A stretch of DNA of 64,000 nucleotides from contig NZ_FNSQ01000005.1 of the NCBI RefSeq assembly GCF_900105205.1, positions 1,426,001-1,490,000 on the forward strand. Reading direction: 5' to 3'. A program made the position numbers and the translations under genes. This DNA is from Microbacterium hydrocarbonoxydans. Its GTDB lineage: Bacteria; Actinomycetota; Actinomycetes; Actinomycetales; Microbacteriaceae. Under the pieces are notes generated by a model. It did no database searches. It was given only the letters and a program-made list of their open reading frames with translations, and was not told the origin of the DNA. Each line of letters begins with the position of its first letter. Positions within the stretch are counted from its first letter, which is position 1. Of this stretch, positions 5,165 through 33,999 are shown piece by piece.

Positions 5165-5256
5165 TAGACTGCCAGCAGTGACACGGGGTGCCGCATCGGC
5201 GGCTGAGAACAGACCCGTCGAACCTGATCTAGTTCGTACTAGCGAAGGGATGTCGC
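5165..5256 (+). promoter_or_regulatory. TPP (THI element) riboswitch with upstream -10
   Basis: The conserved blocks of a thiamine pyrophosphate riboswitch are all present in order: CGGGGTGCC, GGCTGAGA, ACCCGTCGAACCTGATCTAG and CGAAGGGA. The outer helix can pair GACA (5180-5183) with TGTC (5251-5254). A TAGACT -10 hexamer sits at 5165-5170, so transcription should start just before the aptamer. The terminal GAAGGGA (about 5244-5250) is also the ribosome binding site of thiM, so ligand binding probably hides it and represses translation when TPP is plentiful. Confidence 0.95.
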
Positions 5257-5258
5257 CC

Positions 5259-6107
5259 ATGAGCGATCGTCTGCGTCCAGAATCCGATCCGACCCTCGCG
5301 GCCTCAGCCGCGGAGCTCCTCTCCGCGCTGCGTGGCGCCCCGCCGCTCACGCACTGCATCACGAACAGCGTCGTCACCGGCTTCACGGCGAACGTTCTGC
5401 TGGCCCTCGGCGCCGCGCCCGCGATGGTCGACATCGTCGACGAGGCGGGACTCTTCGCCGGCGTCGCATCCGGGATGCTGATGAACCTCGGGACGCCTAC
5501 CCCCGAACAGCGCGCGGCGAGCAGAGAGGCGGTCGCCGGAGCCACGGCATCCGGCACGCCCTGGGTGCTCGACCCGGTGGCGATCGGCGTGCTCCCGGTC
5601 CGGACCGCACTCGCGCAGGAACTCGCCGCCGCCCGCCCGACGGCGATCCGGGGAAACGCCTCCGAGATCCTCGCCCTGGCCGGCCAGAGTGCGGGCGGAC
5701 GCGGGGTGGATGCGACCGATGCGACGGATGCGGCCGCCGATGCCGCGATCGCGCTCGCCGCCCGCCATGGTGCGGTCGTCGCGGTGTCGGGACCCGTCGA
5801 CCTGATCACCGATGGACGCCGTGTCATCCGCCTCGCGAACGGCGATGAACTGCTGACCCGCGTCACCGGTGGCGGGTGCGCCCTGGGAGCTGTGATGGCC
5901 GCGTTCCTCGGTGCAGCACGGGTGGGCGGCGTCGACCCGCTCACCGCGGTGGCCGCAGCGACCCTCGTCTACACGGTCGCCGCCGAGCACGCGGCGGCTC
6001 AGGCATCCGGTCCGGGCAGCTTCGCCGTCGCATTCCTCGATGCGCTCGCCGCGATCCAGCCGCACGACCTCGCGCCCGCAGCGCGAGTCGAGGAGCGCGC
6101 GCTGTGA
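5259..6107 (+). CDS. thiM: Hydroxyethylthiazole kinase
   Basis: 282 residues. ThiM phosphorylates 4-methyl-5-hydroxyethylthiazole, salvaging the thiazole half of thiamine. Typical segments are [26 protein letters not shown] near the N-terminus, [25 protein letters not shown], and the ATP-site [10 protein letters not shown] with the catalytic Cys. The ATG at 5259 lies 9 bases after the AAGGG site; the earlier ATG at 5250 is inside the riboswitch P1 helix and is less likely. Overlaps the next gene by four bases (GTGA). Controlled by the TPP riboswitch just upstream. Confidence 0.96.
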
Positions 6108-17363: not shown

Positions 17364-17436
17364 CCTGTCGCGGACGGCGACAGGCCGCCCACGCCGGCGC
17401 GAATCGCCGATGCCGACCGCTGATAGCCTGGAGCGC

Positions 17437-18738
17437 GTGTCGAATCCCGCTCTGACGACCGCCCCGCCGGCGATCGACCCCACGTTCGAGAACGTGTGGG
17501 ACGAACTGCTGTGGCGCGGCCTCGTCCATGTGTCCACTGACCAGGAGGCGCTGCGCGCCCTTCTCGCCGGGGACCCGATCACGTATTACTGCGGCTTCGA
17601 CCCGACGGCTCCCAGCCTGCACCTCGGAAACCTGGTGCAGCTGCTGACGCTGCGGCGCATCCAGCTCGCCGGTCACAAGCCGCTCGGACTCGTCGGAGGA
17701 TCGACCGGTCTGATCGGTGACCCCCGTCCCACGGCCGAGCGCACGCTCAACACGCGAGAGACGGTCGAGGAATGGGTGGGGCGCCTGCGGACGCAGGTCG
17801 AGCGCTACCTGAGCTTCGAGGGCGACAACGCCGCCCGCATCGTCAACAACCTCGACTGGACGGCGCCGCTGTCGGCGATCGACTTCCTGCGCGAGATCGG
17901 CAAGCACTACCGCGTCGGCACGATGCTGAAGAAGGATGCGGTCGCTGCGCGCCTGAACTCGGACGAGGGCATCAGCTACACCGAGTTCAGCTACCAGATC
18001 CTGCAGGGGATGGACTTCCTCGAGCTCTACCGCCAGTACGACTGTGTGCTGCAGACCGGTGGGTCGGACCAGTGGGGAAATCTGACCAGCGGTACGGATC
18101 TGATCCGTCGTGCCGAGGGGGTCTCCGCGCATGCGATCGGCACGCCGCTGATCACGAACAGCGATGGCACCAAGTTCGGCAAGAGCGAGGGCAACGCGAT
18201 CTGGCTCGACGCCGACATGTGCAGCCCGTACCGGATGTACCAGTTCTGGCTGAGCACGACGGATGCCGACGTCATCGACCGGTTGAAGGTCTTCACCTTC
18301 CTCACCAGGGCCGAGATCGAGGAGTACGCGGCTTTGGTCGAGGCCGAGCCGTTCCGTCGTGCAGCGCAGAAGCGTCTCGCGCTGGAGGTCGTCGCCACGG
18401 TGCACGGCGTCGATGCCGCGGCCGCGGTGATCGCGGCATCCGAGGCGCTGTTCGGACAGGGCGACCTGACCGCGCTCGACGCGGCGACGCTGCGGACGGC
18501 CATCGAGGAGCTGCCTCACACGACTGTCGCGGCGGGAGCGCCGGTGGTCGAGGCGCTCGTGACGACCGGCCTCGTGTCCAGTCTGTCCGAAGCGCGCCGT
18601 GCGATCAGCCAGGGTGGGGTGTCGCTCGACGGAGAACGCGTCGAAGACGAGACCGCCACTGTCGCGGGCACGCTGCCCGGCGGAGTGTCTGTCCTGCGGC
18701 GCGGCAAGAAGACCCTCGCCGGGGTCTTCATCGCCTGA
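17437..18738 (+). CDS. tyrS: Tyrosyl-tRNA synthetase
   Basis: 433 residues from the GTG at 17437. This start is preferred to the ATG at 17410 because TAGCCT at 17424-17429 lies seven bases before the GTG and would be a leaderless -10 inside the longer version. Class I signatures are HLGN (His62, in PTAPSLHLGNLV) and KFGKS (residues 246-250, the KMSKS loop). The C-terminus is an S4 RNA-binding domain (ARRAISQGGVSLDGERV). Charges tRNA-Tyr in the cytoplasm. The intergenic stretch before it contains no other gene. Confidence 0.97.
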   Translation: MSNPALTTAPPAIDPTFENVWDELLWRGLVHVSTDQEALRALLAGDPITYYCGFDPTAPSLHLGNLVQLLTLRRIQLAGHKPLGLVGGSTGLIGDPRPTAERTLNTRETVEEWVGRLRTQVERYLSFEGDNAARIVNNLDWTAPLSAIDFLREIGKHYRVGTMLKKDAVAARLNSDEGISYTEFSYQILQGMDFLELYRQYDCVLQTGGSDQWGNLTSGTDLIRRAEGVSAHAIGTPLITNSDGTKFGKSEGNAIWLDADMCSPYRMYQFWLSTTDADVIDRLKVFTFLTRAEIEEYAALVEAEPFRRAAQKRLALEVVATVHGVDAAAAVIAASEALFGQGDLTALDAATLRTAIEELPHTTVAAGAPVVEALVTTGLVSSLSEARRAISQGGVSLDGERVEDETATVAGTLPGGVSVLRRGKKTLAGVFIA

Positions 18739-18837: not shown

Positions 18838-19635
18838 ATGCCGTTCACCCCGAGCCACGCTCTGGTCGCTCTGCCGTTCATCCGCACTCCGCTGGTGCCG
18901 TCGGCGATCGCGATCGGAGCGATGACCCCCGACCTTCCACTGTTCGTCCGGGGCCTCGGACTCCAGTACTCGTTCACGCACACCTTCGGAAACGTCGTGT
19001 GGACGGCGCTGGTCGCATTCGTGCTCTTCCTCGTCTGGCGGGTCGTGCTGCGTCCGGCGGTCGGAGAACTCACGCCGCTCTGGATCGCGCGGCGTCTGCC
19101 CGACGGATGGAAGCGCTCAGGCGTCGCGGCCGCCGGCGAAGCGGTCGGCGTGGGTCTCGGGCGACCGGCCTATCCCGTTCTGCTCGCCGTGTCGCTGATC
19201 CTGGGCGTGCTGACGCACATCGTGTGGGATCTCTTCACGCATGAGGGGCGCTGGGGCGTCGAGATCTTCCCGGCGCTCGAGCAGATGTGGGGACCGCTGA
19301 GCGGCTACAAGTGGCTGCAGCACGGGTCGAGTGTGATCGGGCTCCTCGGCCTCGGCACCTGGGCGATCCTCCGCTGGAACCGGCAGGAACCCCGAGCCGG
19401 CGACGACCGGTTCCTCCCTGCAGCGGTGCGCATCGCCTGGTGGCTCTCGCTGCCTGCGGTGCTGGTGACTGCCTGCATCGTCGGCTACCTGGCGTACGGC
19501 CCGTTCACCGCCGAGTTCACGTATCAGCACCTGGCCTATCGGATGCTCCCGCCGGCCTGTGCGCTGTGGGGCGCGCTCACGCTGGTGCTCTGCCTCGCAC
19601 TTCCCGCCTTCCGGCGGCGTCACCACGCGGGCTGA
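18838..19635 (+). CDS. DUF4184 family membrane protein
   Basis: 265 residues beginning MPFTPSHALVALPFI, the hallmark of DUF4184, with conserved His and Asp residues (PSHA, MTPDLP, HTFGN, HIVWDLFTHEGRWG) arranged as in small integral-membrane metal-dependent hydrolases of the YdjM type. About five hydrophobic spans are visible (for example TALVAFVLFLVWRVVL and LSLPAVLVTACIVGYLAYG). An AGGAG site precedes the ATG by eight bases. The last 16 bases overlap the convergent CoA-transferase gene. A membrane hydrolase role is an inference from the conserved acidic and His residues. Confidence 0.82.
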   Translation: MPFTPSHALVALPFIRTPLVPSAIAIGAMTPDLPLFVRGLGLQYSFTHTFGNVVWTALVAFVLFLVWRVVLRPAVGELTPLWIARRLPDGWKRSGVAAAGEAVGVGLGRPAYPVLLAVSLILGVLTHIVWDLFTHEGRWGVEIFPALEQMWGPLSGYKWLQHGSSVIGLLGLGTWAILRWNRQEPRAGDDRFLPAAVRIAWWLSLPAVLVTACIVGYLAYGPFTAEFTYQHLAYRMLPPACALWGALTLVLCLALPAFRRRHHAG

Positions 19636-20948
19636 TCAGAGCCCCATCGGTGCGGAGCCGCGAAAGCGAGTCCCGGCAGTGCGGGACCGGCGGTGATGAG
19701 CGTCGTCCCGTCGACATCGAAGGACGCGGTGTGCGCCGACGGATCCATCGTCTGCTCCGGCTCGGGCTCGCTCGCGCGCGGCATCCCGAGCAGTTCGGCG
19801 GCGATACGCCGGAGCGAGGTGCGGATGATCCAGGTGCCGCCTTCGCGTCGACGACGCCGGAGCAGCCCCGTGATCGCGGCGGCGAGCAGGTAGCCCGCGC
19901 TGTGGTCGAGCGCTTGCGCGGGTAGCGTGCCAGGACGATCCCCGTCGGGTGACTCGATCAGCGCGATTCCGGACTCCGCCTGCACGAGACTGTCGAATCC
20001 GGCCCGCCCTGGTGCGTCGGCACCCCAGGCGCTCAGCTGTGCGATCACGAGCCCGGGATGCCGGGCGGCGAGGGCATCGGGGGAGATGCCGAGCGTCGCC
20101 AGTGACGACGGGCGGTAGCCGAGCACGACGACGTCGGCACGGTCGAGCAGCTCCTGGAACCGGCCGGTGCGTGCATCGAGAAGGATGGAGCGCTTGCCGT
20201 GGCCGGTGTCGAGATGCTGCCAGTCGGGTTCGTCCAGGTGGGGAGGATCGACCCGCAGCACGTCCGCCCCCAGGAGGGCGAGGGTCCGGGTGCAGACCGG
20301 CCCCGCGATGACGCGAGTGAGATCAAGGACGCGGATACCGGCGAGAGGCCGACTCCCGTGGTCCTGATCCCTCGCCGCTGGGGGAGCGGCGTCCGCTCCG
20401 CCGGAGCGGATGACCTCGAGGAGCGGGGTGGCGCGCAGCCTCGCATTCGTGCGTGGGGACTCGGGGAGCACGGGGACCGCGAGCCCGCCGGTCGCGGTGA
20501 TCGTCGCCACAGCCTCGGAAGTCGTCGTGCCGGCGATGACGGCTGCCACGTCGGCGGCGCCCGAGCCTGCGGCCAGATCGAGCCCGGCCAGCAATCGCGC
20601 CGCGTGGTGCGCGTAATTGCCATGCGTGCGCACCCAGCCGTCACGCGAGCGCCAGAATCCGGAGAAGGGCGACCAGACATCGGGCGCGACGCCGTCGACG
20701 GTGAGCATACGGTCGCTGCGATAGGCGGCGGCGATGCGGACGGGGTCCGGGGGAGTGCCGATGCCGGCGGCGAGACCCGCGGCGCGCACGCTCGCCCAGG
20801 CCAGATCCGAGACGGCGAGGCGAGAGGGCAGTGGCACCGCACGAGGTGACGACGCGGCGATCTCGTCGTCGTCCCAGTCGATGCCGATCTCCGTCCGCAC
20901 GCGGTCGAGGAGGGCAGCGGCGGGGGAGCAGATCGGAGGCTGGCGCAC
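19620..20948 (-). CDS. CaiB/BaiF family (family III) CoA-transferase
   Basis: 442 residues from the GTG at 20948. TACGAT on the minus strand ends six bases before this GTG, so the transcript is probably leaderless and the longer open frame toward 21098 is not coding. The family signature is LAGIRVLDLTRVIAGPVCTR... followed by ALLGADVLRVDPP, and AGFDSLVQAESGIA, where the Asp is the expected acyl carrier. These enzymes move CoA between carboxylic acids such as formate/oxalate or carnitine. Two half-domains seem present, the N-terminal one being degenerate. No substrate can be named from the context. Confidence 0.85.
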   Translation of the reverse strand: MRQPPICSPAAALLDRVRTEIGIDWDDDEIAASSPRAVPLPSRLAVSDLAWASVRAAGLAAGIGTPPDPVRIAAAYRSDRMLTVDGVAPDVWSPFSGFWRSRDGWVRTHGNYAHHAARLLAGLDLAAGSGAADVAAVIAGTTTSEAVATITATGGLAVPVLPESPRTNARLRATPLLEVIRSGGADAAPPAARDQDHGSRPLAGIRVLDLTRVIAGPVCTRTLALLGADVLRVDPPHLDEPDWQHLDTGHGKRSILLDARTGRFQELLDRADVVVLGYRPSSLATLGISPDALAARHPGLVIAQLSAWGADAPGRAGFDSLVQAESGIALIESPDGDRPGTLPAQALDHSAGYLLAAAITGLLRRRRREGGTWIIRTSLRRIAAELLGMPRASEPEPEQTMDPSAHTASFDVDGTTLITAGPALPGLAFAAPHRWGSDQPAW

Positions 20949-21163
20949 GCTGCGATCGTACCCGTGCGGCGGATCCCGATGCTTTAGTGGCGCTGGACTG
21001 GGTATTCCTGATCGCGGGCCGCCTGCGACACGCCCGGGGTGCCGCCCCGATTCGCCAGATCCCTGGAATCCACGTAACTTATTACTTGTTCGCCCCACAG
21101 GGAAGCGGAGAGGCCGAGAGCTTCACCCCCCTCAAGCGGAGAACAACCTCCCACTCCTCTCAC

Positions 21164-21541: not shown

Positions 21542-26580
<5,039 letters not shown>

Positions 26581-26683: not shown

Positions 26684-26801
26684 TTTCGGCGGCCATAGCG
26701 TGAGGGAAACGCCCGGTTACATTCCGAACCCGGAAGCTAAGCCTCACAGCGCCGATGGTACTGCAGGGGGGACCCTGTGGGAGAGTAGGACACCGCCGGA
26801 C
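26684..26801 (+). rRNA. rrf: 5S ribosomal RNA
   Basis: About 118 bases, from TTTCGGCGGCCATAGCG to CACCGCCGGAC, whose ends pair as the 5S helix I. The inner CCCGGTTACATTCCGAACCC and GGGAGAGTAGG blocks are typical. Confidence 0.95.
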
Positions 26802-26812
26802 TTCTTTTAAGC

Positions 26813-26843
26813 AAATGGCCACCCATCGTTGGGTGGCCATTTT
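26813..26843 (+). terminator. rrn operon terminator
   Basis: A perfect 13-bp stem (26813-26825 with 26830-26842), a TCGT loop and a short T-run ending near 26843. It ends the rrn transcript 30 bases before the next gene's ATG. Confidence 0.93.
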
Positions 26844-26873
26844 GCGTTAACAACATCGAGAACAGGGAGCATC

Positions 26874-29228
26874 ATGCCGGAAGAGGAAGAGCGCCGTCCG
26901 CGTCGCAACGACGACAATGGATCGCGCGGTCAGCGCCCCTCCGGAGGACGTCCCGATCAGAACCGCACGGGAGGGCCGCGTCGCGACGGCGGCGCACCCC
27001 GTACGGGTGGCTACAACCGTGACAACCGTGATGGTGGCGCTCCGCGTTCGGGTGGTTACAACCGCGACAACCGTGATGGTGGCGCTCCGCGCACTGGCGT
27101 CTACAACCGTGATGGTGGCGCTCCGCGCTCGGGTGGTTACAACCGTGATGGTGGCGCTCCGCGCTCGGGTGGTTACAACCGTGACAGCCGTGACGGTGGC
27201 GCTCCGCGTTCGGGTGGCTACAACCGTGACAACCGTGATGGTGCCGCACCGCGCACTGGTGGCTACAACCGTGATGGTGGTGCTCCTCGCTCGGGTGGTT
27301 ACAACCGTGACAACCGTGATGGTGGTGCTCCGCGTTCGGGTGGTTACAACCGTGACAGCCGTGACGGTGGCGCTCCGCGTTCGGGTGGCTACAACCGTGA
27401 CAACCGTGATGGTGCCGCACCCCGCACTGGTGGCTACAACCGTGACGGTGGCGCTCCGCGCTCGGGTGGCTACAACCGCGACAGCCGTGACGGAGGTGCT
27501 CCTCGCTCGGGTGGCTACAACCGCGACAGCCGTGACGGTGGTGCTCCGCGCTCGGGTGGCTACAACCGCGACGGTGGCGCTCCGCGCTCGGGCCGTGACA
27601 ACCGTGACGGTGGCGCACCCCGCACTGGCGGGTACAACCGTGACAACCGTGACGGTGGCGCACCCCGCACTGGCGGGTACAACCGCGACAACCGCGATGG
27701 CGGCGCACCCCGCACTGGCGGGTACAACCGTGACAACCGTGACGGTGGTGCTCCGCGTTCGGGTGGGTACAACCGTGACAACCGTGACGGTGGTGCTCCG
27801 CGTTCGGGTGGGTACAACCGTGACAACCGTGACGGTGGTGCTCCGCGCACTGGTGGGTACAACCGCGACAGCCGTGACGGTGGTGCTCCGCGCTCGGGTG
27901 GCTACAACCGTGACAGCCGTGACGGTGGTGCTCCGCGCTCGGGTGGCTACAACCGTGACAGCCGTGACGGTGGTGCTCCCCGCACCGGTGGCTACAACCG
28001 TGACAGCCGTGATGGTGGCGCTCCCCGCACCGGTGGCTACAACCGCGACAACCGCGATTCCCGTGGTGGCGCTCCGGAACGTGGCTCGTCCCGCTCCTAC
28101 CCGCAGCGCGGGGGAGAGGGTCGCGAGCGGCCCATTCAGGCATCCGGCGATCGCCCGCGCTTCAATGACCCGCACATCCCTGACGAGGTCACGGCACGCG
28201 ATCTGCACACGTCTGCGCGTAACGAGCTGAAGACGCTCAGCAAGGAGAACGCCGAACTGGTCGCACGTCATCTCGCGATGGCATCACGTCTGATCGACGA
28301 GGATCCCGCACTGGCGCATGAGCACGCCCTCGCAGCATCCCGTCGCGCCGGCCGTATCGCCATCGTGCGCGAGACGCTGGGAATCACCGCTTACGCCACG
28401 GAGGACTTCGCACTTGCGCTGCGCGAGCTGCGTACCTACCGTCGCATCTCGGGCAAGGACGACCAGATCGCACTGATGGTCGACAGCGAGCGCGGTATCG
28501 GGCGTCCCGACCGTGCCCTGGAGACGGGTCGTGCGGTCGATCGCACAACGCTGCCGACACCGGTCCGTGTGTCCCTCGCGATCGCGATGTCCGGAGCGCG
28601 GCTCGACCAGGGCGACCTCGAACTCGCGCTCGGCGAGCTCGAGATCCCCGAGCTCGATCCGGACCGCGCTTTCGAGTGGAGCCCGGCGCTGTTCGCGGCC
28701 CGCGCTGCCGTGCTCGAGGATCTCGGACGCACCGACGAGGCCGAGTTCTGGGCACACCGTGCCGAGGTCGCCGCGGAGGCGCTCGGCGTCGACGAGGCAG
28801 GCGACGAGGAGATCATCATCGAGGACGGCCTGATCGAGGGCGAGTCCGACGATGAGACCGAGGGCGTTGAGCCGGCCGCGGATGGCAACCGTATCGAGAC
28901 GCTCGACGCAGATGCCGCAGATGACGCAGACGACGCATCCGATGCCCCCGATGCCGCCGACGCAGACGACGCAGACGACGCCGACGACGCGAGCGACGCC
29001 GACGGTGCGCCGGTCGCCGCCGAGGGCGCTGAAGCGGTCGATGCTCCCGAGGACGCAATCGAGGCGGAGCCCTCGATCGAGTCCGAGCCGTCGATCGACG
29101 ACGAGGTGCGCGAACTGCTGGGCGAAGACGTCTACGAGGCGGCCACCGAGGACAGCGCTGACAGCACCGACAGCACCGACAGCACCGACGGTGACCGTCG
29201 CGCTTCGGGTACGTCCGAGGAGGCGTAG
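26874..29228 (+). CDS. TPR-like protein with an Arg/Gly/Tyr/Asn repeat domain
   Basis: 784 residues from the ATG at 26874 (AGGGAG site 5 bases upstream). Residues 1-38 are charged; residues 39-395 consist of 25 repeats of GGAPR(S/T)GGYNRDNRD or the 12-residue form without the second NRD/SRD; residues about 425-640 are an alpha-helical TPR-like region (HTSARNELKTLSKENAELVA, ALALRELRTYRR, LGRTDEAEFWAHRAE); the tail, about 655-784, is rich in Asp, Ala and Glu. The gene lies between tyrS and the HAD gene, the place of the TPR protein Rv1691 in M. tuberculosis, so the C-terminal part is probably its orthologue and the repeats an added domain. The repeats resemble RGG-type RNA-binding, condensate-forming segments. 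Some annotations call such proteins primosomal; I see no support. Confidence 0.85.
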   Translation: MPEEEERRPRRNDDNGSRGQRPSGGRPDQNRTGGPRRDGGAPRTGGYNRDNRDGGAPRSGGYNRDNRDGGAPRTGVYNRDGGAPRSGGYNRDGGAPRSGGYNRDSRDGGAPRSGGYNRDNRDGAAPRTGGYNRDGGAPRSGGYNRDNRDGGAPRSGGYNRDSRDGGAPRSGGYNRDNRDGAAPRTGGYNRDGGAPRSGGYNRDSRDGGAPRSGGYNRDSRDGGAPRSGGYNRDGGAPRSGRDNRDGGAPRTGGYNRDNRDGGAPRTGGYNRDNRDGGAPRTGGYNRDNRDGGAPRSGGYNRDNRDGGAPRSGGYNRDNRDGGAPRTGGYNRDSRDGGAPRSGGYNRDSRDGGAPRSGGYNRDSRDGGAPRTGGYNRDSRDGGAPRTGGYNRDNRDSRGGAPERGSSRSYPQRGGEGRERPIQASGDRPRFNDPHIPDEVTARDLHTSARNELKTLSKENAELVARHLAMASRLIDEDPALAHEHALAASRRAGRIAIVRETLGITAYATEDFALALRELRTYRRISGKDDQIALMVDSERGIGRPDRALETGRAVDRTTLPTPVRVSLAIAMSGARLDQGDLELALGELEIPELDPDRAFEWSPALFAARAAVLEDLGRTDEAEFWAHRAEVAAEALGVDEAGDEEIIIEDGLIEGESDDETEGVEPAADGNRIETLDADAADDADDASDAPDAADADDADDADDASDADGAPVAAEGAEAVDAPEDAIEAEPSIESEPSIDDEVRELLGEDVYEAATEDSADSTDSTDSTDGDRRASGTSEEA
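26988..28058 (+). repeat. 25-unit coding tandem repeat (45/36 bp)
   Basis: Nineteen 45-base and six 36-base units in frame, 1071 bases in all. Units differ mainly at synonymous positions and by S/T and N/S swaps. Two units begin GAAPR and one has the aberrant end SGRDNRD. The tandem structure allows in-frame expansion and contraction. Confidence 0.95.
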
Positions 29229-30265
29229 TGGGGCTGTTCTCCAAGAAGGCCATGGCGTCGACTCCGCTCGACGGAGTCGACGCCGTCCTGGCCGATCTCG
29301 ACGGTGTCGTATACGCGGGTCCCGGTGCCCTGCCCCACGCGGTGGAGAGCCTGAATGCGGCCGCCGTCACGGCACGGCTGGGCTACATCACGAACAACGC
29401 GTCGCGCACGGATGCCTCCGTCGCCGAGCATCTCACGAGTCTCGGTCTGGACGTCGCACCGGCGGATGTCATCACGAGCCCCCAGGCGGCCATGCGGCTG
29501 CTGGCAGACATCGTGCCGCCGCCTGCGACGCTGCTCATCGTCGGTGGCGCCGGCCTCGTCGACGAGGCGGAGAAGGCGGGATACACCGTCACCCGCAGTG
29601 CCGATGATGCTCCGGATGCCGTGGTGCAGGGTTTCGCCCCCGAAGTGGCCTGGACCGACCTCGCCGAGGCGGCGTTCGCGCTGAAGGTCCCGGAAGAAGA
29701 GGGTGGCATCCCCTGGATCGCGACCAACACCGACTGGACGATCCCTCGCGAGCGTGGCGTCGCGCCGGGCAACGGCACACTCGTCTCCGCTGTGCACACG
29801 GCCATCGGCCGACTGGCCACGGTGGCGGGCAAGCCGGAGACGCCGATCTTCGAGGAGGCGACGGAACGCTTCGGCGCTCGGAAGCCGCTCTTCATCGGCG
29901 ACCGCCTCGACACCGACATCCTCGGCGCCGTGCGGGCGGGGATCGACTCGGCATTGGTGCTCACGGGCATCGACCGGCCGAAGCACGTCCTGGCGGCGCC
30001 CGAGGGCTCGCGTCCCACGTACATCCTCAGCGACCTGCGTGAGCTCCATGAGCCATACCCGACGGTCACCGTCAAGGACGGCGTGCATTCGGTCAACGGC
30101 GCGGCGGTGCGAGTATCCGGTGCCGATGTCGAGATCGTCGCCGAGGGTGACTCGCAGATCGACCTCCTCCGTGCGGGAGCGGCCGCGATCTGGGCGTCGG
30201 GTACGCCGGTTTTCGTGCTGCGCGTCCCCGAACGGCTCTACGACGACCCCTTCCACCGTCCCTGA
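29228..30265 (+). CDS. HAD-superfamily (IIA) hydrolase
   Basis: 345 residues. The GTG start shares a base with the stop of the TPR gene (TAGTG). HAD motif I is LADLDGVVYAG with nucleophile Asp23 and general acid Asp25; motif II lies in YITNNASRT, and motif III/IV in KPLFIGDRLDTDILGA. The cap and size fit the NagD/PGP-like IIA subfamily, which dephosphorylates small metabolites such as p-nitrophenyl phosphate, glycerol phosphate or nucleotides. The order with tlyA downstream is conserved in actinobacteria (Rv1692-Rv1694). Real substrate unknown. Confidence 0.92.
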   Translation: MGLFSKKAMASTPLDGVDAVLADLDGVVYAGPGALPHAVESLNAAAVTARLGYITNNASRTDASVAEHLTSLGLDVAPADVITSPQAAMRLLADIVPPPATLLIVGGAGLVDEAEKAGYTVTRSADDAPDAVVQGFAPEVAWTDLAEAAFALKVPEEEGGIPWIATNTDWTIPRERGVAPGNGTLVSAVHTAIGRLATVAGKPETPIFEEATERFGARKPLFIGDRLDTDILGAVRAGIDSALVLTGIDRPKHVLAAPEGSRPTYILSDLRELHEPYPTVTVKDGVHSVNGAAVRVSGADVEIVAEGDSQIDLLRAGAAAIWASGTPVFVLRVPERLYDDPFHRP

Positions 30266-30429: not shown

Positions 30430-30606
30430 GTGAGCGAAGAGACGACGAACGCACCGACCGACGGTCTGTGGAGTCGGCTGCGCCTGATCGAGGGGCAGCC
30501 GCTCGCTGCCAGAGCAGGCGCGTACTCCGGACTGCACGACGAGCTCTCCCGCCGCCTCGACAGCGGAGCCAAGCTCGACCAGCGCGACGCGCCGGGCGCC
30601 CGATGA
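30430..30606 (+). CDS. Small conserved-position protein upstream of tlyA
   Basis: 58 residues from the GTG at 30430. TACAGT at 30418-30423 sits six bases before it, a leaderless promoter. The sequence is hydrophilic, with a predicted helix around LRLIEGQPLAARAGAYSGLHDELSRRL. No domain is recognised. Its overlap with tlyA (ATGA) and its place between the HAD gene and tlyA match the small gene Rv1693 of M. tuberculosis, which supports it as real. Confidence 0.75.
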   Translation: MSEETTNAPTDGLWSRLRLIEGQPLAARAGAYSGLHDELSRRLDSGAKLDQRDAPGAR

Positions 30607-31400
30607 CACGACTCGATGCCGCCCTCGCCGCGCGAGGACTCGCCCGTTCGCGCACCCATGCGGCCACACTCATCGCCGACGGACTGGTGAGCGTCGACGG
30701 GCGACCGGTCGTGAAGGCATCCACCTCCGTCGCCGACACCTCGGAGCTCAGCGTCGCGGGGGCCGATCACTACGTCGGACGAGGCGCGCACAAGCTGATC
30801 GCCGCGCTCGACGGTTTCGCCGTCCCGGTCGAGGGGCGCCTCGCCCTGGACATGGGGGCGTCCACCGGCGGCTTCACGCAGGTGCTCCGCGAACGGGGCG
30901 CGCGTCGTGTGCTGGCCGTCGACGTGGGTCATGACCAGATGGCACCGGCCGTCGCAGCCGACCCCGCCGTGGTGGTCGTCGAAGGCTTCAATGTCCGCCA
31001 CATGACGCCCGAGAATCTGCAGAGCGTCACCGGTGAGGCTTCGGCCCCCGAACTCGTGGTCGGCGACCTCTCGTTCATCTCCCTCGAACTCGTGCTCCCC
31101 GCCATCGCGAGCGTCGCGGCGCCCGGCGCCGACATCATCCTGCTCGTGAAGCCTCAGTTCGAGGTGGGGCGAACCGCGGTGCGCGGCGGCCTCGTCACCG
31201 ACCCGGCCACGCGCGCCGACGCCGTCGCCCGCACCGCGTGGAGCGCCTGGGACGCGGGACTCGGGATGCTCGGAATCCTCGCATCGCCGATCCTCGGCAC
31301 GCACGGCAACTCGGAGTATCTCCTGCACCTCGCGCCGGGACGCGGCAGTGATCCGTCAGAATGGTCGGACCGCATCAACGCACTGGCAGGGAGACGATGA
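30603..31400 (+). CDS. tlyA: 16S/23S rRNA 2'-O-methyltransferase TlyA
   Basis: 265 residues from the ATG at 30603. TlyA methylates ribose of 16S C1409 and 23S C1920 (E. coli numbering), and its loss gives capreomycin/viomycin resistance in mycobacteria. Residues 1-62 form an S4 domain ([20 protein letters not shown]); the rest is an FtsJ-type SAM methyltransferase with LDMGASTGGFTQVL at about 82-95 and the Lys-Asp-Lys-Glu elements spread over DHYVGRGAHKL, DVGHDQM and LLVKPQFEVG. Coupled by overlaps to the genes on both sides. Confidence 0.95.
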   Translation: MTRLDAALAARGLARSRTHAATLIADGLVSVDGRPVVKASTSVADTSELSVAGADHYVGRGAHKLIAALDGFAVPVEGRLALDMGASTGGFTQVLRERGARRVLAVDVGHDQMAPAVAADPAVVVVEGFNVRHMTPENLQSVTGEASAPELVVGDLSFISLELVLPAIASVAAPGADIILLVKPQFEVGRTAVRGGLVTDPATRADAVARTAWSAWDAGLGMLGILASPILGTHGNSEYLLHLAPGRGSDPSEWSDRINALAGRR

Positions 31401-32311
31401 ACGAGCGCAACATCCTGGTCGTCGCTCACGCCGGCCGGGACGAGACCGTGGCCGCAGCCAGACGCGTGGTCGACGAACTGCGCAGCGCCGGCGCACGCCC
31501 GGTCCTCGCCGCCGACGACAGTCTCGACCTGCAGGCCGTCGATGCGCACTTCGCCGATGTCGACGTGCTCGGCGACACCGTGCAGCAGGAGGAGCTCGAA
31601 CTCGCGATCGTGCTCGGCGGCGACGGCACGATCCTCCGCGCGGCAGAGCTGGTGCGCGGCTGCGCGGCGCCGGTGCTCGGCATCAACATGGGGCACGTCG
31701 GATTCCTCGCCGAGATCGATCGCGATGACATGGATGCCGCTGTGCGCCGGGTCATCGCCCGCGACTACACGGTCGAGGAGCGGCTGGCCCTGTCCGTGCG
31801 CGTCAAGGACGTCGACGGCACCGTCGTCTACGAGACCTTCGCGCTGAACGAGGCGACCGTCGAGAAGGCCAGCCGCGAGCGCATGATCGAGATCGTCCTC
31901 GAGATCGACGGACTGCCGCTGTCGAGCTTCGGCTGCGACGGCATGGTCGTCTCCACGCCGACCGGCTCCACGGCCTACAACTTCTCGGCGGGCGGACCCG
32001 TCATCTGGCCGCGCGTCGAAGCGATCGCCGTCGTCCCGCTGTCGGCCCATGCGCTCTTCGCGAAGCCGCTCGTCGTGAGTCCGGACGCCGCAGTCGCCAT
32101 CGAGATGCTCGAGGGCACCTCCGGTGCGGGCATCCTCTGGTGCGACGGTCGACGGTCACACGATCTTCCTCCCGGTGCGCGCGTCGTGGTGCGACGCTCG
32201 TCGCGCCCGGTGCGGCTCGCACGCCTGCATCCGACCGCCTTCACCAACCGCCTGGTGCGCAAGTTCCAACTGCCGGTCGCCGGGTGGCGCGGGCAGGGGG
32301 CGACGTCATGA
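31397..32311 (+). CDS. nadK: NAD kinase
   Basis: 304 residues from the ATG at 31397, which overlaps the tlyA stop. Phosphorylates NAD to NADP with ATP or polyphosphate. The GGDGT motif is at about residues 74-78 (IVLGGDGTILRAAEL) and the NAD-binding NEATVEK and TPTGSTAYNFSAGGPV blocks follow. The latter contains the conserved GGP segment. The position between tlyA and recN is conserved across actinobacteria. Confidence 0.97.
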   Translation: MNERNILVVAHAGRDETVAAARRVVDELRSAGARPVLAADDSLDLQAVDAHFADVDVLGDTVQQEELELAIVLGGDGTILRAAELVRGCAAPVLGINMGHVGFLAEIDRDDMDAAVRRVIARDYTVEERLALSVRVKDVDGTVVYETFALNEATVEKASRERMIEIVLEIDGLPLSSFGCDGMVVSTPTGSTAYNFSAGGPVIWPRVEAIAVVPLSAHALFAKPLVVSPDAAVAIEMLEGTSGAGILWCDGRRSHDLPPGARVVVRRSSRPVRLARLHPTAFTNRLVRKFQLPVAGWRGQGATS

Positions 32312-33999
32312 TCGAGGAGATGCGGATGCAGGGCCTCGGCGTCATCGCCGACGCCGTGCTGCCCCTCGGCGCGGGGTTCACCGCCATCACGGGTGAGACC
32401 GGCGCCGGCAAGACCATGGTGGTCACGGGACTCGGACTGCTGCTCGGCCAGCGTGCCGATTCGGGCGCGGTGCGAGCCGGTGCGAACCAGGCCTCGGTCG
32501 CCGGCGTGTGGATCGTCCCGGAGACGGGGGACGTCGCCGACATCGTCTCCGATGCCGGGGGAGAGCTGGAGCCCGCAGGCTCGGGCTCTGCCGAGCTCTA
32601 CGTCTCGCGCACGCTCAGCGCCGAAGGCCGCAGCCGCGCCAGCGTCGGTGGCCGCGCTGCTCCCGCCGGCGTGCTGTCCGCCCTCGCTGAGGAGCTCGTC
32701 GTCGTGCACGGGCAGTCCGAGCAGCTCCGCCTGCGCTCCTCTGCCGCACAGCGCGACGCCCTCGACCGCTTCGGCGGGGCTCCCATCGCGTCGGCGCTGG
32801 AGGCGTACGGAGCGGCGTTCGAGCGGTGGCGTGCGCTGGACGCCGAGATCACCGACATCACCGAGAACCGTGATCGCCGTGCCGAGGAGGCGACCCGGTT
32901 GCGCGAGGCATTGGCGCTCATCGAGGCCGCCGCACCGGAGCCCGGCGAAGACGTCGCACTCGCCGCGCGTGCCGAGCGCCTCGCGAACGCCGAGGAGCTA
33001 CGGCTCGCCGCCTCCCTCGCCCACGGCGCGCTGTCGAACGAAGAGGGCGAACCGGATGCCTCCGTACTCGTCGCCGAGGCCCGCCGCGCGCTCGAGCGCG
33101 TCTCGGATGCATCCCTGACCGAGGTCTCGGAGACGCTCGCCGACATCGGCTATCGCATCGCCGACGTCGCGGTGCAGCTGTCGACCTACCTCGCCGACCT
33201 CGACGAGTCCGGCCCGCATGAACTCGCAGCAGTCGAGGAGCGCCGGGCGGCGCTCGGCACGCTGATCCGTGCCCACGGCTCGCTGGATGACGCACTGAAG
33301 CTCTGGCAGACGGGTTCGACGCGGCTCGCGGAGCTCGACGACGACGATGAGCGGCTCGTGAATCTCGAAGCCGAGCGGGATGCCGCGCGCGCCGAGCTCG
33401 ACGCGAAGGCCGACGCTCTCACGAGCGAGCGCACGGAGGCCGCCCGCCGGCTGGGCGTGGCCGTGAGCGAGGAGCTGCATGCGCTCGCGATGCCCGATGC
33501 CAGGCTCGAGGTCGCCGTCACTCCGGGATCCGAGAGCACGCATGGTCGGGACGACGTCGCGATCCTCCTCGCCCCGCACCCTGGTGCCGAGCCGCGCTCG
33601 GTCGGGAAGGGGGCATCCGGCGGAGAGCTCTCCCGGGTGATGCTCGCGATCGAGGTCGTCATCGCGGGCACCGACCCCGTGCCGACGTTCGTGTTCGACG
33701 AGGTCGACGCCGGCATCGGCGGCGCCGCTGCGATCGAGGTGGGCCGACGACTCGCCCGGCTCGCAGAGAAGTCGCAGGTCATCGCCGTGACGCATCTCGC
33801 GCAGGTCGCCGCGTTCGCCACCAATCATCTTTCGGTCGTCAAATCCAACGACGGCGCGGTCACCGCATCCAGTGTCCGCCGTCTGGACGGCCCCGAACGC
33901 GAGGCCGAGATGGCTCGTCTGCTCTCGGGACTCGCCGATTCGGATGCTGCTCTCACCCACGCCAGGGAACTTCTCACCCTCGGCACCTCCGGCGACTGA
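32308..33999 (+). CDS. recN: DNA repair ATPase RecN
   Basis: 563 residues from the ATG at 32308 inside the nadK stop; the longer frame beginning in nadK is rejected. RecN is an SMC-like ATPase that gathers broken DNA ends. Walker A GETGAGKT is at residues 29-36; the signature [14 protein letters not shown] and Walker [16 protein letters not shown] are in the last third, and the middle (about residues 170-400) is a coiled coil. No SOS box is visible immediately upstream because the gene is read through from nadK. Confidence 0.96.

Follow-up and report, generated by a model that had tools for sequence, protein, structure and literature searches.

A gene that lies directly behind a ribosomal RNA (rrn) operon of Microbacterium hydrocarbonoxydans was analysed in a 64,000-nucleotide stretch of the genome (contig NZ_FNSQ01000005.1, positions 1,426,001 to 1,490,000), referred to here as the window. 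The gene encodes a tetratricopeptide repeat (TPR) protein with a long Arg-rich N-terminal arm, which an earlier note on this DNA had read as RGG-like repeats grafted on a conserved TPR protein. The interesting part is not a graft; it is an old, rrn-tied protein with a hypervariable arm whose net charge is nearly fixed. The protein is conserved, as the note proposed, and its core was found in 55 of 58 genomes of a first sample of relatives and in 187 of 197 genomes of the class. Across the phylum the core was found in 63 of 148 genomes; 47 of these 63 lie outside the class, where the match scores are weaker.

The 16S, 23S and 5S rRNA genes precede the TPR gene, and the linkage is far more conserved than the earlier note, which had placed the gene just behind the operon, could know. 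In the window the start codon follows the end of the 5S rRNA gene by 72 nt, on the same strand and at the short distance expected of a member gene of an rRNA operon. At 115 of 156 loci a same-strand 5S lies upstream, 34 reach a contig edge and in 7 it is absent (115 of the 122 assessable loci); 40 class loci from 39 genomes were hand-picked among the matches listed, mainly for their upstream DNA, and are not a random sample. The median gap from 5S to start codon is 97.5 nt (n = 110), with 8 gaps over 250 nt and a maximum of 3890 nt. Re-inspection of the 7 loci without rrn revealed that one (L117) begins inside the end of a 5S, as read by eye from its translation, and that two (L114 and L141) lie at contig edges. 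Outside the class, 24 of the 47 genomes with a match were covered; the distance to a 5S is at most 300 nt in 12 and 0.67–4.04 kb in 6, one has other rrn sequence only and one ends. This same-strand 5S linkage across relatives is new in this analysis. Among the titles and text passages searched for Rv1691, MSMEG_3754 and MSMEG_3757, none describes the rrn linkage or the arm.

The linkage extends to duplication. Two genomes of family f81 (G265 and G218) hold two copies of the block (L260/L261 and L256/L257) that are about 99% identical. The G265 copies share 99.07% identity across 6.78 kb, starting about 420 bp ahead of 16S and ending 7–9 nt past the TPR stop codon; the G218 copies share 99.22% across 6.68 kb, starting about 425 bp ahead of 16S and ending 23–26 nt short of the end of the stop codon. 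In G265 one copy is flanked by tyrS on its upstream side and by the HAD hydrolase gene and tlyA on its downstream side, whereas the other copy has none of these. In G218 tyrS lies ahead of one copy and HAD and tlyA lie behind the other. Because the 99% identity ends near the end of the TPR gene while the flanks differ, the rrn operon and the TPR gene are handled as one block by duplication or gene conversion. In a further genome (G225) both copies stand behind a 5S, yet only the 5S regions align. The split flanks of G218 resemble the outcome of recombination between the blocks.

The repeats, a TPR-like domain and an acidic tail form one protein, as had been claimed, and the frame is open for all 784 aa, so that no stop interrupts the array. 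The 25 units lie between residues 39 and 397 and comprise 18 units of 15 aa, 6 of 12 aa and 1 of 17 aa, with the unit GGAPR[S/T]GGYNRD, to which [N/S]RD is added or not. Among the 18 long units the variability is 0.298 at third codon positions and 0.030 and 0.033 at first and second positions, about a tenfold difference, and pN/pS is 0.073. The repeat units are under purifying selection, and because third-position variation dominates and pN/pS is this low, the array is a translated, selected peptide. Long open reading frames (ORFs) on the minus strand (e.g. 26847-28271) look like by-products of the repeats; an antisense gene in them is unlikely, given that the variation sits at wobble positions of the plus frame, a judgement that comes from scoring of the plus frame with the minus frames unscored. 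A mobile or genome-wide repeat element was also rejected, the array giving a single match across the genome at E up to 1.

The arm of 427 aa, which consists of the array and its flanks, is composed of 25.5% Gly, 20.4% Arg, 11.7% Asp, 9.1% Asn and 5.9% Tyr. It contains 87 Arg, 25 Tyr and no Lys, is almost devoid of hydrophobic residues and, from this composition, is probably disordered. The make-up is that of RNA-binding proteins, as the earlier note stated; the label RGG-like is loose, however, for a protein with just 2 RGG and 4 RG in the 427 aa, short of an RGG/RG box. RGG is frequent in some other families, with a mean of 33 in f88 and 16 in f21.

Arg-rich arms characterise the family and only the repeat unit is local, which removes the case for grafted repeats: the arm sequence itself is recognisable in 4 of 28 relatives, the genome of the window counted, against the figures for the core given above. 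An arm of 63–593 aa precedes the core in 129 of 134 assessable loci; for the arm statistics 22 of the 156 loci were dropped (start unassessable, contig edge or masked bases), as were a further 5 of the 134 with arms under 60 aa. A recent graft was rejected on the same ground, as every class family with an assessable N-terminus carries an Arg-rich arm of 60 aa or more; the exceptions are f20 and two of the three f22 loci. Other Microbacterium arms are built from units such as KRDGDRKPYE, RRPYGDRDRNQSGE or DRPRYDGDRPKRSFDD, while f21 features RGGFRRDDR-type arms of 280–458 aa and f88 RGGDRREGGF-type arms of 554–593 aa. Arms of 97–427 aa stand on cores that are at least 88% identical (L093, L038, L003, L006, L043, L008 and the window). 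Repeat numbers of this kind can be collapsed by short reads. Charged residues make up 22–67% of the 129 arms, and the net charge per residue is +0.09 ± 0.024 with a minimum of +0.037. Over 27 family means the positive and negative fractions are correlated (r = 0.89) and none of 10,000 permutations gave an equally small spread of net charge; these sequences are non-independent, with 85 of the 129 arms in one family and some records from the same genome (L040, L118). Across these comparisons the repeat unit turns over within the genus, while the net charge of the arm is nearly fixed.

The core is clearly predicted to be a TPR superhelix despite a Pfam score below the cut-off (12.6 bits against 27), as the relatives and the structure model agree, and the window protein has the helical superhelix that defines a TPR protein. 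The core alignment was built with 74 relatives, f22 members included. An NCBIfam scan of the window protein gave no match, and the core profile searched against sequences of solved structures gave one weak match, to a designed protein. The tail of the window protein has a net charge of -0.35 per residue over its 124 aa, and tails of at least 20 aa are acidic in the family means (-0.20 to -0.52 per residue). Homologues among the best 120 of 1731 matches are Microbacterium proteins, many of them labelled primosomal protein or hypothetical. Only the former label is shared with primosomal proteins; Pfam and NCBIfam returned no primosomal family for the window protein. An SSB-like ORF stands behind the TPR gene in two loci (L199 and L202) and is our guess at the source of the name.

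The window gene is assigned to the putative orthologue group of Rv1691/MSMEG_3754, a TPR-repeat-containing family, with which it shares a homologous core and the gene order ahead of HAD, tlyA, nadK and recN. The names are linked through position and mycobacterial relatives, and what we take to be the gene order of Rv1691 itself was used to join the window gene to that group. The two differ in the arm, which is 38 aa in the mycobacterial locus L188 and 427 aa in the window. The L188 protein (f22) is 100% identical to a Mycolicibacterium rutilum protein, and its gene begins 102 nt after a 5S. The short, repeat-free N-terminus of this mycobacterial orthologue is in line with the earlier note's statement that the gene of M. 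tuberculosis has no such repeats. Rv1691 presumably has neither repeats nor a neighbouring rrn, and we assume that M. tuberculosis has lost the rrn copy at this locus. In PMC3072309, Rv1691 is placed in the lprJ-recN operon.

The spacer between 5S and the TPR gene bears on expression. Hairpins similar to that of the window occur in relatives, and the genome's other rrn copy carries a version of its own; in a terminator scan, the T run of the window hairpin fell short of the threshold. Among 72 distinct Microbacteriaceae spacers of up to 400 nt the hairpins have a median of 16 pairs; the median distance from hairpin to start codon is 48 nt, and this distance is at most 45 nt in 34 of the 72. 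The whole spacer is 67–94 nt in the compared Microbacterium loci with a sound start call; longer spacers of 137 nt and 170 nt occur in L111 and L106. TANNNT boxes are not enriched in spacers of 40–200 nt (44 against 41.6). A lone sigma-70-like match in the window spacer (0.1 expected) has its -10 box at 26870-26875, overlapping the start codon, and was judged unusable. Because the 31-nt leader has no room for an ordinary promoter, read-through from the rrn operon is likely in the window and would be the simplest route of expression; lineages with longer spacers may differ. The passages of PMC5741613 contain nothing on read-through.

Our best guess, from sequence evidence, is that the TPR protein may work on rRNA or on transcribing polymerase. 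We tentatively prefer the explanation that it is an rRNA-linked adaptor whose arm would contact RNA and whose dose would be tied to rRNA by read-through. The adaptor would have remained linked to a single rRNA operon during much of the evolution of actinobacteria. Its TPR core would bind a protein partner, as the fold suggests, and the slightly positive arm, rich in Arg, Gly, Asp and Tyr, would make weak multivalent contacts with RNA, the most likely targets being rRNA, nascent or in precursor form, or transcripts close to RNA polymerase. Where present, the acidic tail might compete with RNA for the arm, which is the weakest step. The anatomy of the window suggests that the gene would be transcribed mainly by RNA polymerase passing the hairpin behind 5S, and that this read-through would couple the dose of the gene, and probably of HAD and TlyA as well, to rRNA synthesis. 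Of this picture, the sequence, the selection on the repeats, the conserved net charge, the fold prediction, the linkage and the co-duplication are shown. A bolder version, which we consider quite unlikely, is a cis-linked scaffold in which the charge-balanced arm would gather pre-rRNA, RNA polymerase and assembly enzymes such as TlyA into a nucleolus-like condensate, with the dose set by read-through and with repeats turning over while selection acts on bulk charge rather than on the exact sequence.

An unlikely but serious alternative is that nothing more than an inherited chromosome order (tyrS, rrn, TPR, HAD, tlyA) is seen, with the gene using its own promoter and the protein unrelated to rRNA. 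The wider locus is conserved, as this explanation requires: among 29 loci with more than 1 kb ahead of 16S, 10 have tyrS there, and among 111 loci where enough DNA was available, matches to tlyA, nadK and recN were found in 105, 103 and 101. Mycobacterial rrnB also sits downstream of tyrS in the accessible text of PMC10218544, where the gene behind rrnB is unnamed, and 11 of the 72 Microbacteriaceae spacers exceed 150 nt and could house a promoter. However, HAD was undetected downstream in 26 of 155 loci (with about 1.0–1.5 kb of DNA available in 25 of the 26), of which 22 keep rrn upstream and the other 4 reach a contig edge, so the rrn side is retained where the downstream side changes. Additionally, the duplicated blocks stop near the end of the TPR gene, and the window spacer has no room for a promoter. 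It is rather unlikely that the protein is a transcription-complex factor riding RNA polymerase, perhaps at rrn or at other strongly transcribed loci, with an arm that touches nascent RNA or the polymerase. In M. smegmatis the family protein copurifies with the RNA polymerase beta subunit without recovery of DNA; this comes from a single data set of bulk affinity purification with mass spectrometry, in which it is 1 of 275 proteins, the association could be indirect, and the explanation overlaps with the adaptor. The least probable case, which we regard as improbable, is that the arm has no specific job, being a GC-rich repeat expansion that is tolerated, and that the TPR core alone matters. 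The free variation of unit and length between close relatives, and the arms under 60 aa in f20, in f22 and outside the class, are what it would predict, whereas the strong purifying selection among the window units and the narrow net charge across the 27 family means argue against it.

Several observations weigh against the adaptor beyond the long spacers and the indirectness of the polymerase association. MSMEG_3754 is in a ClpC1 interactome list in PMC10433963 and may, given that listing, surface in many pull-downs. Mycobacterial arms (f22) are short at the 3 loci, with 20, 38 and 107 aa, and N-termini outside the class span 18–317 aa, with 11 of 24 under 60 aa. Families f20, f77, f80, f81, f87 and most of f22 are essentially tail-less beyond the core, which makes a general role of the tail unlikely, and the charge balance could serve solubility alone. 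Linkage alone would not establish a role, and four loci are true rrn-less exceptions (L063, L065, L066 and L115), rrn being absent in Naasia, in one f20 genome and in two genomes of f4; f4 combines a long arm, no rrn and tyrS directly upstream. Outside the class 4 of the 24 also lack rrn, and tyrS adjoins in two of these 4. In L225, L227, L065 and L066 tyrS is the immediate upstream neighbour of the TPR gene and no rrn separates the two, possibly an empty or emptied site.

Among known systems, eukaryotic nucleolar proteins with glycine- and arginine-rich (GAR/RGG) domains, such as fibrillarin and nucleolin, resemble the window protein in having an Arg/Gly arm beside a folded domain in an rRNA setting, some with an acidic stretch. 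No homology is claimed, however, and the window protein differs in its 2 RGG, its TPR core and a polyampholyte that is not a plain GAR domain. PMC13269538 describes Bacteroides Rho (BtRho), in which a disordered region drives RNA-dependent condensation and a KE-rich subdomain is responsible. BtRho likewise has a charged low-complexity region of a bacterial protein beside a folded, transcription-linked core, but is an enzyme of known activity, whereas in the window protein the repeats are RD/GY-rich and the core is a TPR fold. Rho of the same genome (L222) has an Ala-rich and then an Arg/Asn/Gly/Gln-rich stretch ahead of its catalytic part; this stretch is Ala-rich and near-neutral, unlike the window arm, with no match at E up to 1, and the likeness was judged weak.

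The protein is a strong lead to a so far neglected component of rRNA synthesis or of ribosome assembly, in a phylum that includes pathogens as well as drug producers: 187 of 197 sampled genomes of the class carry it, and operon and gene were duplicated or homogenised together in two genomes. The arms also offer a natural experiment on low-complexity regions, with 27 families that differ in unit and length and share one net charge.

Features of the rrn-TPR locus in the window
Feature	Coordinates	Strand	Basis or remarks
16S rRNA gene	21542..23066	+	Rfam RF00177
23S rRNA gene	23477..26579	+	Rfam RF02541
5S rRNA gene, last of the rrn operon	26685..26801	+	Rfam RF00001
rrn terminator-like hairpin, 13 perfect pairs, loop TCGT, short T tail	26813..26842	+	sequence
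Leader of 31 nt, hairpin to start codon	26843..26873	+	ribosome-binding site AGGGAG; no room for a full promoter
TPR protein gene with Arg-rich arm, 784 aa	26874..29228	+	ATG start, ribosome-binding site AGGGAG, open throughout
Tandem repeat array, 25 units	26985..28054	+	Tandem Repeats Finder score 1104, 45-nt period
TPR core, 11 predicted helices, pLDDT mostly 96-99	28155..28850	+	structure model, relatives
Acidic tail, 124 aa (Asp 23%, Glu 15%, Ala 23%)	28854..29225	+	composition
HAD-IIA family hydrolase gene	29228..30265	+	GTG start overlapping the TPR stop codon

The overlap of the HAD start with the TPR stop codon makes it likely that the two genes form one transcription unit. A lax search for HAD behind the gene in other families, at 15 loci, found none; one had tlyA instead. 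Behind HAD, sequence and position lead us to take the next plus-strand genes for a TlyA-like rRNA methyltransferase (30603..31400) and for NAD kinase and RecN (31397..33999). Upstream of the rrn operon, in the region of 17410-18738 and 18838-21098, lies what we take to be a tyrS-like ORF, as for mycobacterial rrnB; between it and rrn stand, on the same assumption, another plus-strand ORF and a minus-strand CoA-transferase-like ORF (19620-21098). Elsewhere in the window, Rfam identified a TPP (thiamine pyrophosphate) riboswitch at 5174-5267.
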